Source: Legionella drozanskii LLAP-1 (lineage in GTDB: Bacteria; Pseudomonadota; Gammaproteobacteria; Legionellales; Legionellaceae). Taken from it: a stretch of DNA of 64,000 nucleotides. The first letter of the stretch is position 1. Each line of letters starts with the position of its first letter. A model generated the notes under the pieces. It saw nothing but the letters and a program-made list of their open reading frames with translations. It searched no databases and was not told where the DNA came from. The stretch spans positions 850,904 through 914,903 of the forward strand of contig NZ_LNXY01000020.1 in NCBI RefSeq assembly GCF_001467585.1, written 5' to 3'. Positions 10,833 through 14,860 of the stretch are shown here, piece by piece. A program made the translations under genes and the position numbers.

Positions 10833-12017
10833 TCAGATCTTTGCTAAATCTCGCTTAGCAGAAAGTATAGTTGAATTGATAATATAGCCTAAACTACCTG
10901 CCACTAGCCCCCAAAATGCAGCGCCAATACCCAATAAAGAGATACCCGAAGCAGAGATAAGAAAAGTAATGAGCGCTGGCTCGCGGTGAGTTTCATCATC
11001 AACTGCCAATTTTAAACTTCCACCTATTGCATTTAATAAAGCCAAGCCCGCTATCGCTAACACTAATTCTTTGGGAAAAGCAGCGAATAGAGCCACAACA
11101 GTAGCACCGAAGATACCTGTTATTACATAAAATACACCAGCCCAGACCGCAGCACGATAACGTAGCTTGGGATCCGGGTCAGCATCTTTACCCATGCAAA
11201 TTGCCGCGGTAATGGCTGCTAAGTTAAGCGCATAGCCTCCAAATGGGGCAAGGATTAAAGTAGTAAGCCCTGTCCAGCTGATTAAAGCTGAGATCGGCGG
11301 ATTATAACCCGAGGCATGCAGTGCCGCTACACCGGGAATATTTTGCGACGTCATGGTCACTATGAATAACGGAATACCAATACTCATCAGCACGGGCCAA
11401 GAAAATTCAGGCATAACAAATTGTGGTGTTGATAGAGCGACATGAAAATTCGCTAAATTAAATAAACCCGCGTAACTGGCAATGAAAATACCTAATAACA
11501 AAGAAAAAATAATGACATAACGAGGAAATAAGTGCTTGCCCACTAAATAACTGACGAACATTGCAATCACTAAGACGAATTGATGTTCCATTGCTACAAA
11601 TAAATTCATCCCAAACTGTAATAAAATGCCGGCAAGCATTGCCGAGGTCAGTGAACGCGGAATCCGGGCCATAAGCTTTTCAAACCATCCGGTAAATCCT
11701 GATAGGATGATAAGTAATGCTGAAAAAATAAACGCTCCTATCGCTTCAGGCATCGATACGCCTGTTAAGCTTGTAGCCAGTAGCGCAGCGCCCGGTGTTG
11801 ACCAGGCAGTTAATATTGGAACGCGATATAAAAGTGAGAGTCCGATGCTTGTTATACCCATGCCGAGTCCGAGCGCAAGCAACCACGAACTCACCTCAGC
11901 AGAATTAGCACCCGCTGCCGCTGCCGCTTGAAAAATAATCACTACGGAGCTGGTAAAACCAACCATGACCGTCACAAATCCTGCAGTAAGATTGGCAAAA
12001 ATGAACTTATTGAACAT
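10833..12017 (-). CDS. BenE/YdcO-family membrane transporter
   Basis: Polytopic transporter of 394 residues with about twelve hydrophobic segments and the family-like stretch SSVVIIFQAAAAAGANSAEVSSWLLALGLG near the N-terminus, followed by TAWSTPGAALLATSL. Relatives include the benzoate transporter BenE and E. coli YdcO. The start at 12017 is chosen because AGGAAG lies six bases before it; an upstream in-frame start would add 14 residues that read through an operator. It is divergent from an XRE-cupin regulator, the same pairing as E. coli ydcO with ydcN (sutR). The substrate is unknown. Confidence 0.85.
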   Translation of the reverse strand: MFNKFIFANLTAGFVTVMVGFTSSVVIIFQAAAAAGANSAEVSSWLLALGLGMGITSIGLSLLYRVPILTAWSTPGAALLATSLTGVSMPEAIGAFIFSALLIILSGFTGWFEKLMARIPRSLTSAMLAGILLQFGMNLFVAMEHQFVLVIAMFVSYLVGKHLFPRYVIIFSLLLGIFIASYAGLFNLANFHVALSTPQFVMPEFSWPVLMSIGIPLFIVTMTSQNIPGVAALHASGYNPPISALISWTGLTTLILAPFGGYALNLAAITAAICMGKDADPDPKLRYRAAVWAGVFYVITGIFGATVVALFAAFPKELVLAIAGLALLNAIGGSLKLAVDDETHREPALITFLISASGISLLGIGAAFWGLVAGSLGYIINSTILSAKRDLAKI

Positions 12018-12040
12018 AATGGTCTTCCTAGTGGAAAAAT

Positions 12041-12058
12041 TGTGCGCTATAACGCACA
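12041..12058. promoter_or_regulatory. Operator candidate 1 (dyad TGTGCG-N6-CGCACA)
   Basis: The sequence TGTGCGCTATAACGCACA is a dyad with perfect 6-bp arms. An identical copy lies 37 bases away, between the divergent transporter and regulator genes. It is 24 bases upstream of the transporter start, where a repressor would block transcription. The likely binder is the adjacent XRE-cupin protein. Confidence 0.75.
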
Positions 12059-12077
12059 TTCTATCTTAACCCAAGCT

Positions 12078-12095
12078 TGTGCGCTATAACGCACA
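12078..12095. promoter_or_regulatory. Operator candidate 2 (identical copy)
   Basis: Second exact copy of TGTGCGCTATAACGCACA, 18 bases before the TTG start of the XRE-cupin regulator. Two identical palindromes in a short divergent intergenic region strongly suggest autoregulation and control of the transporter. The 37-base spacing is about 3.5 helical turns. Confidence 0.75.
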
Positions 12096-12113
12096 TACTT
12101 TTTTGGAGTTATT

Positions 12114-12674
12114 TTGAAAAATATTTCCCATCATATCGCTGAAACCTTAAAAAAATTACGTCATCAACAGGGCTGGAGTTTGGACAAAACGGCGCAGGAA
12201 ACGGGGGTTAGCAAAGCAATGCTAGGTCAAATTGAACGCGGGGAATCCAGTCCCACTGTGGCCACACTCTGGAAGATCGCCAGTGGTTTTCAAACCTCAT
12301 TTTCTTCTTTTATCGAGGAATTCCCTATTGAATCCGCAGGCATGATTTATCGTTCGGTTCAAACTCAAAGCCTCAGTCACGTTAATGAAAAAATTCACAT
12401 TACAACGCTTTTCCCTTTTGATCAACAATTGCGCTTCGAGCTTTTTTCGATTGAATTACCACCCGGCTGTGAGCACTTATCAACGGCTCACGAGCCAGGG
12501 GTGATTGAACATGTTATTGTAGTGAGTGGAGAGATGGAGGTATTGCTGAATAATATTTGGCAAACTTTACAGCAAGGAGATGCCTTACGTTTTACTGCCA
12601 ACCAAGCACACGGCTATCGCAATAAGGGCTCTGTCAGCGCGGTTTTCCACAACATTATTCATTATCCAACTTAG
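12114..12674 (+). CDS. XRE-family HTH regulator with C-terminal cupin domain (SutR/YdcN-like)
   Basis: Transcription factor of 186 residues. An N-terminal helix-turn-helix spans residues about 8-65 (LRHQQGWSLDKTAQETGVSKAMLGQIERGESSPTVATLWKIA). A C-terminal cupin barrel (residues about 105-180, PPGCEHLSTAHEPGVIEHVIVVSGEMEVLL) probably senses a small ligand. The start is TTG with GGAG five bases upstream. It is divergent from the BenE-like transporter and is the likely binder of the two operators between them. Its stop codon overlaps the stop of the convergent downstream gene. Confidence 0.88.
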   Translation: MKNISHHIAETLKKLRHQQGWSLDKTAQETGVSKAMLGQIERGESSPTVATLWKIASGFQTSFSSFIEEFPIESAGMIYRSVQTQSLSHVNEKIHITTLFPFDQQLRFELFSIELPPGCEHLSTAHEPGVIEHVIVVSGEMEVLLNNIWQTLQQGDALRFTANQAHGYRNKGSVSAVFHNIIHYPT

Positions 12675-13177: not shown

Positions 13178-13484
13178 GATGATTACTCGCTCAAAATTAT
13201 CACAATCGCACGCTTATGCTTGCATAAACGGCAATTTTAATTCATTTTTTGCAGATAACAACCATTTTTTGTAGGCAGCAGTTACTATTAACTGCCCCCA
13301 TGACGGGTTCTACCACAATGATAAAACCAAGCAAATACCAGGCGGTGTAACAGTCCCATGCCCATTCCTCACCATAAATAGCCGAAGCCCTGACGAACTC
13401 AGGGTATACATCCATACATTCAACTCATGGTAGAGTTTTTTAATCAACAAGGCGCCCAATTCCCTCACAACAGCCTAATTAAAC
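13178..13484. other. Intergenic region upstream of the brnQ promoter
   Basis: No gene seen. It holds a perfect short hairpin CCCTGA-CGAAC-TCAGGG near 13390-13406, and a weak AACTC/GAGTT stem followed by six T near 13421-13441 that could stop transcription entering brnQ from upstream. Confidence 0.4.
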
Positions 13485-13513
13485 TTGCAAATTGCACGCA
13501 AATTGTGTATAAA
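13485..13513 (+). promoter_or_regulatory. Sigma-70 promoter for the brnQ leader transcript
   Basis: The -35 box TTGCAA (13485-13490) and -10 box TATAAA (13508-13513) are separated by exactly 17 bases. The transcript would start near 13520, about 37 bases before the leader peptide ATG. Confidence 0.6.
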
Positions 13514-13556
13514 GGAAATTGCCTGCAATTTATTTGTACATTAAGACAACAAAAGA

Positions 13557-13655
13557 ATGAACGATTTATTAGTGATACAGTCTACTTTTTCAGTTCTTCC
13601 AATCGAGGTAAGTACTCTCGCTGTCGTCGTTGTTGTGGCCCCCGCGGCCATCTAA
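13557..13655 (+). CDS. Valine-rich leader peptide upstream of brnQ (candidate attenuator)
   Basis: Short frame of 32 codons: MNDLLVIQSTFSVLPIEVST followed by LAVVVVVAPAAI and a stop. Five consecutive valine codons (GTC GTC GTT GTT GTG, 13623-13637) lie near the end, as in the E. coli ivbL leader, with further Leu, Ile and Val codons before them. It follows a good promoter and ends 59 bases before the start of a branched-chain amino acid importer. The ribosome site is weak. The valine run GTTGTTG can pair with CAACAAC at codons 2-4 of brnQ. A stalled ribosome could therefore free the brnQ start, and a non-stalled one could leave it masked. The mechanism is inferred. Confidence 0.6.
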   Translation: MNDLLVIQSTFSVLPIEVSTLAVVVVVAPAAI

Positions 13656-13714
13656 CTAACCCCCCCCACAATTCGCTTTTAACACCTAACCAAACCAAAA
13701 TTGGGAAACAGGAC

Positions 13715-14860
13715 ATGCAACAACAATACAAATCCATTTTAATCTACGGCTTCGCAATCTTCGCGATGTTTTTTGGCTCCGGCAATCTAGTTTTTCCACT
13801 GCAAATTGGCTTTGCAGCCGGCGATGGCTGGGTTATGGGCTTTGTTGGTCTTCTTTTAACAGGGATTTTACTCCCCCTTATGGGACTTTTTGTTATCAAA
13901 CTATATCAAGGAAATTACCATGCTTTCTTTGGCAGTGCTGGAAAGTTAGCAGGAATCCTTTTACCTCTTATCATGCTTTCACTTCTTGGCTCATTTGGAG
14001 TCGTACCCCGTTGTATCACTGTGGCCTATGGCAGTTTGAGTTATCTTATGCCGCAAATAAAGTTAATGCCTTTTAGCCTTTTGTTCTGTTTTATCACCTT
14101 TGTTTTTTGTCTCAATGATAAAATGATGATCAAAATTTTGGGAAAATGGATGAGTCCCATCTTACTCATTACCTTAATTCTCATGATTGTTATTGCTGCA
14201 ATTAAAGCGCCTAGTCCCGAAACCACGGTCTTAGCCAAGACTGCATTTATGAATGGCTTTACTACTGGTTATCAAACAATGGATTTATTTGCCGCCTTTT
14301 TCTTTTCAGCACTAATTTTTACGCAAATCCAGCAACAGCTACCCAGTGCAACCAATCGAGAAATTCTTTTGTTTGCGATTAAGCCGAGTATTTTGGGCGC
14401 GTCGCTGCTTGCTTTAATCTATTTTGGTTTTGTCTTTTTAGGCTCACATTACACCTCGCTCCTAAAAAATACCTCTCCTGAATTGATGTTACCCAGTATT
14501 GCCTCTCAGGCAATGGGTACCTATGCCACTCTATTCATCGGCATTGCTATGTTTTTTTCTTGCCTGACAACAGCAGTTGCTTTAAACAACTTATATGCTC
14601 GATATCTTTGCTCCCTTTTAAAAATAAAAGAGGATAAATTTTATATTCTTCTGCTTATAACGACGGGAGTCTCTTTTGTGATTTCTCTCCTCGATTTTAA
14701 AGGAATTGCAGCCTTCCTATCTCCCATTCTCGAGCTAACTTATCCCGGTGTTATCGCGCTGACTGTCATGGCGATTTTGCTCAAAGAAAGGCATTTTTTG
14801 AAAAAAACGGTATTTTATATGATGACCTTTTTTATGTGTGTTCCGATGGCTATTCATTGA
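13715..14860 (+). CDS. brnQ: Branched-chain amino acid:cation symporter BrnQ
   Basis: Inner-membrane carrier for Leu, Ile and Val, 381 residues, with about eleven hydrophobic segments. It starts MQQQYKSILIYGFAIFAMFFGSGNLVFPLQIG, the family N-terminus with its FGSGN motif. The frame stays open 96 codons further upstream, but that stretch holds the promoter and leader peptide and is not transporter-like. The protein is shorter than the about 430-440 residues of E. coli BrnQ and ends soon after the last hydrophobic segment. Expression is probably tied to the valine-rich leader peptide. Confidence 0.88.
   Translation: MQQQYKSILIYGFAIFAMFFGSGNLVFPLQIGFAAGDGWVMGFVGLLLTGILLPLMGLFVIKLYQGNYHAFFGSAGKLAGILLPLIMLSLLGSFGVVPRCITVAYGSLSYLMPQIKLMPFSLLFCFITFVFCLNDKMMIKILGKWMSPILLITLILMIVIAAIKAPSPETTVLAKTAFMNGFTTGYQTMDLFAAFFFSALIFTQIQQQLPSATNREILLFAIKPSILGASLLALIYFGFVFLGSHYTSLLKNTSPELMLPSIASQAMGTYATLFIGIAMFFSCLTTAVALNNLYARYLCSLLKIKEDKFYILLLITTGVSFVISLLDFKGIAAFLSPILELTYPGVIALTVMAILLKERHFLKKTVFYMMTFFMCVPMAIH

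Follow-up and report, generated by a model that had tools for sequence, protein, structure and literature searches.

The leader region of brnQ in Legionella drozanskii

The DNA examined here is a 64,000-nucleotide stretch of the Legionella drozanskii LLAP-1 genome (contig NZ_LNXY01000020.1, positions 850,904 to 914,903; referred to below as the window, in which position 1 is the first base), and our subject is the leader that precedes a brnQ-like gene for a branched-chain amino acid (BCAA) carrier of 381 amino acids, located at 13715..14860 on the plus strand, the strand of all the leader features given below. The BrnQ protein matches Pfam PF05525 at 205.8 bits (cut-off 22.3), and the closest of its relatives among the named records, that of L. 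nautarum, is 93% identical. Its score against the NCBIfam equivalog TIGR00796 (211.1 bits) lies below the cut-off of 243.4, and the substrate is for this reason a predicted one. Ahead of the gene is an arrangement that we refer to as the leader-hairpin element, which consists of a leader open reading frame (ORF), mostly rich in valine codons, a short hairpin that either carries the stop codon of the leader in its loop or lies just 5' of it, and a G-poor tract. Comparison of this element with its counterparts elsewhere suggests, with a probability of about 0.52, that it is a cis-acting, ribosome-mediated sensor of BCAA supply that controls the BrnQ importer and does so, in Legionella, with no intrinsic terminator.

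A sigma-70-like promoter (13485..13513), with TTGCAA at 13485-13490 and TATAAA at 13508-13513, is followed by a leader ORF of 32 codons (13557..13655; MNDLLVIQSTFSVLPIEVSTLAVVVVVAPAAI) that ends in the residues VVVVVAPAAI, has its TAA stop codon at 13653-13655 and has a frame that is kept in relatives. The run of five valine codons near its end, GTC GTC GTT GTT GTG (13623..13637), represents the putative control codons. The hairpin (13636..13650; TGGCC-CCCGC-GGCCA, with 5 bp and a 5-nt loop), which is supported by its pairing across loci, has its first base within the last valine codon and its final base 2 nt 5' of the stop. It is followed by a G-poor, C-rich tract with 20 C and 1 G in its 48 nt, a candidate loading site for the termination factor Rho (13651..13698), and by the brnQ ribosome binding region (13699..13714, placed by eye), so that 59 bases separate the leader stop from the brnQ start at 13715. 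A sequence-only reading of this DNA had described the promoter with its 17-nt spacer, the 32-codon frame with five consecutive valine codons near its end and the 59-base gap, and all of these are confirmed here, including the promoter coordinates; it had overlooked the hairpin and the G-poor tract. The promoter was not picked up in our scan of 13180-14000, which accepts only second hexamers that end in T. A TTGnnn-16to18-TATAnn arrangement, always with a spacer of 17, occurs 60-180 nt 5' of the hairpin in 23 of the 30 Legionellaceae loci that have the element, and three of the other seven (L013, L014 and L021) have TATAA at the border of the searched stretch.

Recurrence of the element and its amino acid setting

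BrnQ is present in 18 of the 22 genomes examined from the window's genus, and the element stands 5' of the gene in 17 of these 18, as does a leader with an ATG start; the exception, L017, has lost the leader and has a promoter directly 5' of brnQ. The persistence of the valine run and the start codon in near relatives had been named in the sequence-only reading as a test of its proposal, and the outcome is largely in its favor: the ATG leader is retained in 17 of 18 loci, with the loss in L017, but the run itself is loose. Runs such as VVVVV, VAVYSVV, FIVTV and VSNVNV argue against its strict conservation, and despite this variation the richness in valine or BCAA codons, the hairpin, the position of the stop codon and the G-poor tract are kept. 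In the draft genome G021 (L019-L021) brnQ is broken, and the leader and hairpin look intact. In L004, L005, L008, L009 and L013 a stretch AGACGA recurs, as judged by eye, just 5' of the leader start or near it.

Beyond the genus, a family-wide search found matches to BrnQ in 33 of 143 genomes, 15 of them outside the genus, and the element in 13 of 14 other Legionellaceae loci after G118, a weak match (27% identity over 63 residues), had been dropped from all the counts. In genus g29 the hairpin is kept and the stop codon lies within its loop in 7 of 11 loci (for example, GTG GCC GCT TAG GCC). A contig scan for BrnQ gave 78 loci, comprising 15 Legionella/Tatlockia records and 63 others, of which 22 have the element, 2 have a valine-rich leader without a clear hairpin and 39 have neither. 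The main count set of 52 element loci is made up of the 17 same-genus, the 13 other Legionellaceae and these 22 distant loci. The distant carriers are mostly alphaproteobacterial metagenome-assembled genomes (MAGs) and endosymbionts, together with a member of the Babeliales (L065) and a MAG of the Chlamydiales (L083). In the order of G146, the search model R1 has a match at a brnQ homolog in 10 of 42 genomes.

In a quick BrnQ tree of 93 rows (midpoint root; L021, L110 and L164-L169 left out), one clade (support 98) has 65 rows, of which 49 are carriers of the element, and the two leaders with valine codons only also belong to it. L083 and L090 fall outside this clade with unsure placement, as is generally the case for the long branches, L090 included; the Clostridia and all the chlamydial rows other than L083 are without the element. 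The simplest reading of this distribution is a single origin followed by losses, the element having stayed with brnQ, and because the host phyla lie far apart, the gene has probably been transferred among intracellular bacteria.

Tests of the frame and codons were based on the 41 of the 52 loci that have a TGGCC or TGGTC hairpin, the 11 others being left out. Among the six codons 5' of the hairpin codon, valine accounts for 106 of 246 in the leader frame and for 1 of 246 in each of the other frames, and 2000 shuffles of the bases gave a mean count of 16 and a maximum of 31. In all 41 loci the first in-frame stop lies at 5-23 nt from the start of the hairpin, as against 2 of 41 for each of the other frames; the leader frame is open for at least 19 codons upstream in 39 of 41. 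A mechanical rule called for at least four valines in the 7-8 codons 5' of an exact hairpin with the stop codon inside it or directly adjoining it. Applied to both strands, it yielded a single match in the window, and the 78 loci (517 kb) contributed 19; every match is 5' of brnQ and within ~200 nt of it. When any amino acid was allowed, there were 31 valine matches and 9 others (699 kb, some genomes appearing twice), and reversed or complemented sequence yielded 12 matches, none with valine. R1 found 30 matches in 134 Legionellaceae genomes, one per genome, 29 of which are at brnQ by position, and 13 matches at brnQ in 19 distant genomes.

By these statistics the valine-leader arrangement is more than chance, and the proposal in the sequence-only reading of a leader ORF with valine or BCAA codons at a fixed place before a BCAA importer gene finds support in the relatives, the frame and the scans. 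As is characteristic of attenuators, the last part of the leader contains codons for the amino acid under regulation, and the frame suggests that the leader is translated. Several candidates were set aside in this work: the R1 match in G137, a chance match that is not at brnQ; the weak R1 matches L160-L163, considered as further copies, which fall within open frames 484-933 codons long; the eleventh R1 match in the order of G146 (L170), inside an open frame of 433 codons; a WWWW match in L067, which is a glycine run read in the wrong frame; and the any-amino-acid match L077, which showed no importer leader.

The setting of the putative sensor can apparently shift from one BCAA to another. In L055 a second brnQ paralog, divergent and divergently transcribed (L055:5403-5415, minus strand), has a leader of its own with an isoleucine run, NLIVIASIIIG, and with the stop codon in the hairpin loop (CGGC-TAAG-GCCG), next to a first brnQ that has a valine-type leader, LIVVLVSVVG. 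The leader of L083 reads IRPIIIG, and the paralogs in L164, L165, L168 and L169 have IIV 5' of the hairpin (by eye; L165 on the other strand). Such a change from valine to isoleucine argues for BCAA sensing. In addition, over the 41 loci of the frame tests GTC makes up 61 of 134 valine codons in the leaders and 154 of 809 in the brnQ genes (chi-square p 2e-11, uncorrected for relatedness), a preference that would be expected if one isoacceptor were the sensor; selective charging is set out in PMC1183508. The gene ilvC exceeds the cut-off in none of the 22 same-genus genomes, in which the nearest approach is a weak match in G016 (19.7 bits), and exceeds it in 14 of 14 control genomes. On account of this result for ilvC, the one enzyme gene considered, these bacteria probably cannot make valine and would rely on imported valine and isoleucine. 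That the leader senses BCAAs appears to us quite likely.

RNA pairing and a proposed role for ribosome position

Pairing in the hairpin is kept through changes of its letters (CCCC/GGGG, GTCGG/CCGAC, TGGTC/GACCG and GGCGG/CCGCC). The middle pair in 52 hand-placed rows is GC in 43, CG in 7 and GU in 2, and the outermost pair is open in 14. The residues behind the valine codon are variable (APAAI, AVTVI, VG or A) and the position of the stop shifts too, so that a conserved arrest peptide end of the tnaC type is not seen among these leaders. An automatic alignment, A2 (37 rows), has a helix that is 90.8% paired, compared with 15-48% for versions slid out of register and 88.8% for shuffles, and the claim of covariation is one that rests largely on the hand-placed rows. 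These features also bear on an alternative in which a repressor or activator would bind the inverted repeat as its DNA operator, the presence of the ORF being coincidental. Many loci do have TGGCC-N5-GGCCA, a perfect dyad; against an operator, the arms vary by lineage and their position relative to the valine frame and the stop is kept, pairs of the G-U type occur in L051 and L057, the bias of the valine frame is strong, and of the three exact copies of the hairpin in the window's own genome the other two are within open frames of 223 and 486 codons. We regard an operator as very improbable.

The valine codons are placed close to the hairpin. Counted per position over the 52 loci, valine peaks at -3 (33) and -2 (34), with 21 each at -5 and -6; this profile used the wrong frame for L004, L022 and L024, which the frame test on 41 loci corrects. 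In the mechanism that we favor, the sensor would be set above all for valine, and for isoleucine in a paralog. When valyl-tRNA is scarce, the leading ribosome would stall in the valine run, 0-6 codons 5' of the hairpin, with its leading edge on or near the 5' arm, so that the hairpin could not form. When valyl-tRNA is plentiful, the ribosome would travel on to the stop codon, within the hairpin or directly 3' of it, and leave, whereupon the hairpin would close and the end of the leader would be bare. This bare state would be the one in which expression is off, most likely by way of Rho, which would load on the tract poor in G and rich in C, with assistance from the uncovered RNA that flanks the hairpin, and would end transcription before brnQ or early within it; with a ribosome parked on the valine run, the loading surface for Rho would stay incomplete. 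Starvation would accordingly be the signal that turns the importer on. Rho as the shut-off step is a tentative suggestion, to which we give somewhat less than an even chance. The same position of the valine peak, 2-3 codons 5' of the hairpin, is at about the right distance from the mRNA entry tunnel, judging from the ribosome footprint as generally given, for a different arrangement in which a hairpin at the entry prolongs the pause in the valine run and what counts is whether the mRNA is protected or exposed (its stability, or Rho), rather than the formation of the hairpin as such. This would leave the stop codon in or behind the hairpin and the G-poor tract unexplained, and we consider it unlikely.

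The base composition behind the hairpin fits Rho loading. Over the 52 loci the 35 nt 3' of the hairpin have 4.4% G, and the tract in the same-genus loci has 2.8% G and 33% C, compared with 19% and 22% in genes. C peaks at 10-20 nt 3' of the hairpin in all three groups, and in 14 of 17 same-genus loci C minus G is among the top 5% of windows of the locus. A G-poor tract of 40-60 nt from stop to start, as is present in most loci, could instead let ribosomes that have completed the leader move across it and start brnQ, in which case brnQ would follow BCAA supply. For an importer in bacteria that are probably auxotrophic for valine, the sign of such reinitiation control is unexpected, and the spacing between hairpin and start extends to 157-176 nt in L063, L064 and L067; we take it to be improbable. 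In the closely related MAGs L063 and L064, the spacer between the hairpin and brnQ has ~100 extra bases with inverted repeats, as judged by eye, which may be a small inserted repeat.

A number of observations weigh against the ribosome-position mechanism. The element-defining loci supply most of the statistics and many of them are relatives; R1 has no match in G129 and, of 19 distant genomes known to carry the element, misses 6; valine is sparse in L012, L015, L022, L024 and L032; L054 and L074 show no in-frame ATG for the leader; and L071 and L072 have kept valine-rich leaders with no clear hairpin. In A2, only one of the five pairs changes on both sides, and 75 of 500 shuffles do as well; there are no more extra pair types than in shuffled rows, and 26 of 500 shuffles attain as high a covariation score. 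As to Rho, C minus G reaches the top 5% in 6 of 13 other Legionellaceae loci and 2 of 22 distant loci, and the excess of C is clear only in the window's genus, the distant tracts being T-rich and G-poor. At ~40-50 nt in most loci, the tract is short for a full Rho site. On a simple view, a ribosome stalled upstream would leave it uncovered and expose such a site, and because of this problem of sign the Rho step needs an assumed two-sided loading site and stays conjectural. Furthermore, masking the valine run opens the brnQ start more than does masking an upstream stretch (48 loci, p 6e-6), which favors control of translation, and by a loose rule at least five T occur in the 8-nt window right behind the hairpin in 17 of 52 loci.

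In translational attenuation, RNA of the valine run would pair with the Shine-Dalgarno sequence or start of brnQ, and a stalled ribosome would free the start. A switch of this type had been proposed in the sequence-only reading from GTTGTTG (13629-13635) and CAACAAC (13718-13724). Both sequences exist, but the proposal is not supported: in the window species, pairing of the valine run with the start does not surpass that of shuffled sequence (z +0.6 and +0.9), masking the valine run does not open the start of the window's brnQ (gain -1.5 kcal/mol), and the pairing is not kept in all relatives. Over the wider set, the valine run and start of a given locus pair more strongly than between-species mixes (52 loci, 0 of 5000 permutations), and within groups p is 0.002 (48 loci), an effect that comes from the 18 distant loci (0 of 5000); L065, L067, L068 and L090, in which the start codon is unsure, were left out of the duplex, masking and within-group permutation tests. 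Individual distant loci look strong, with duplexes of -30.5 kcal/mol in L064 (z -5.3) and -24.9 in L055 (z -2.7), a z of -3.6 in L083 and masking gains of 14.9 in L064, 8.7 in L074 and 8.0 in L055, and L075 is also among them. Against this, p within the group is 0.10 for the window's genus, where the window species is negative, and 0.95 for the other Legionellaceae, and near-copies among the distant loci (L069/L074/L075/L080 and L063/L064) make the p value of that group too good. The mean masking gain in 48 loci is 1.76 kcal/mol, compared with 0.85 for shuffled runs (p 0.08, not clearly more), and in the 17 same-genus loci it is the same as with shuffled runs (1.42 versus 1.41). Pairing of the codon run with the Shine-Dalgarno or start region beyond chance was thus not found for Legionella and is supported in only a few distant loci, and we consider translational attenuation unlikely. 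The C-rich tract was also considered as a pairing partner for the Shine-Dalgarno sequence of brnQ and rejected, since the pairs within a locus are weaker than mixed ones (48 loci, p 0.99).

A classical attenuator with an intrinsic terminator, as in E. coli ivbL-ilvB, would share with the leader a valine-rich peptide of similar size, and the T-rich tails mentioned above, together with a run of at least five T within 25 nt of the hairpin in 9 of 52 loci, speak in its favor. In the window, the stretch 13180-14000 has no terminator-like site (shuffle mean 1.1), which agrees with the sequence-only reading that no strong U-run terminator is present, and the hairpin is followed by TCTAACTAACCC, which we count against an intrinsic terminator. 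A GC-rich terminator hairpin with a U run and an antiterminator were not found in the window, A2 giving only a local hairpin of 3 pairs, and the 241-nt leader as a whole folds no better than shuffles (z 0.66). Rfam gave two matches in 13180-14000 at E up to 1, both on the minus strand and below the gathering score, and across 16 loci two tRNAs were its only matches. Wherever a five-T run follows one of the 52 hairpins, it begins at a distance of at least 5 nt, and the nearest is that of L055. The count of T-rich tails (17 of 52) makes a terminator role outside the window species conceivable, and it led us to raise the very small probability of an intrinsic terminator slightly and to lower that of the ribosome-position mechanism from 0.55 to 0.52. 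Elsewhere in the window, upstream of the brnQ region (10833-12674), are a gene for a BenE-type transporter and a divergent gene for a helix-turn-helix (HTH)-cupin regulator.

Comparison with known leaders

We see an about even chance that these leaders form a class of ribosome-position switches without a terminator, having BCAA codons, a stop-codon hairpin of otherwise free sequence and a G-poor tract, that belongs to one BrnQ clade across Legionellaceae, endosymbiotic Alphaproteobacteria, Babeliales and Chlamydiales and has its valine or isoleucine setting swapped between paralogs. If so, bacteria that dwell in amoebae and other hosts and are probably unable to synthesize valine would share a small RNA device that reads the amino acid supply of the host at an importer and not at biosynthetic genes. 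The device would be unusually simple, with control codons, one stop-codon hairpin of 4-6 bp and a G-poor tract, and its recurrence across phyla with a single gene family would provide a direct test of readout by ribosome position.

Among the matches listed in a search of the open-licence literature there is no brnQ leader of this kind. E. coli ivbL-ilvB and the other ilv attenuators likewise have a short, BCAA-rich leader ORF with stalling codons before a BCAA gene. The likeness to ivbL drawn in the sequence-only reading holds for the sensor half, the valine leader, and breaks down for the other half, since ivbL acts through an intrinsic terminator and none was found in the window. In the tnaC-tnaAB operon of E. 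coli the end of the leader ORF abuts a Rho loading region, as it would here; tnaC stalls by means of an arrest peptide on excess tryptophan, whereas the peptide end of the brnQ leader is not conserved. The leaders of mycobacterial cys operons have reportedly been followed up experimentally by Canestrari in 2020.

In PMC1262725, these cys leaders are described as candidate terminator-less leaders in which a pyrimidine-rich stretch is suggested, weakly, as a Rho site; they have in common with the brnQ leader the control codons near the stop, the lack of a terminator and a possible Rho stretch. They differ, according to the same source, in having no conserved terminator hairpin and polyY motifs that are not conserved, whereas the hairpin and the G-poor tract of the brnQ leaders recur across distant groups. 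In the LEU element of actinobacterial leuA, also covered there, the codon run can pair with the next Shine-Dalgarno sequence, as seems possible in L064, L055 and L074; a pseudoknot is involved in that case, and such pairing is unsupported in Legionella. The M. tuberculosis ilvB1 attenuator, as presented in PMC13236596, has a BCAA-rich leader ORF, stalling codons and an intrinsic terminator; it and the ilv attenuators use an intrinsic terminator to control biosynthetic genes, whereas the brnQ leader has a stop-codon hairpin ahead of an importer gene and no terminator in the window. The leucine-responsive attenuator of the Staphylococcus aureus ilv operon likewise has a leader ORF with BCAA codons at which stalling on low supply is proposed (PMC5794164); there, a terminator and antiterminator are proposed to act on a biosynthetic operon, and brnQ1 is described as being under CodY, whereas in Legionella the importer gene itself would be under the control of the leader.
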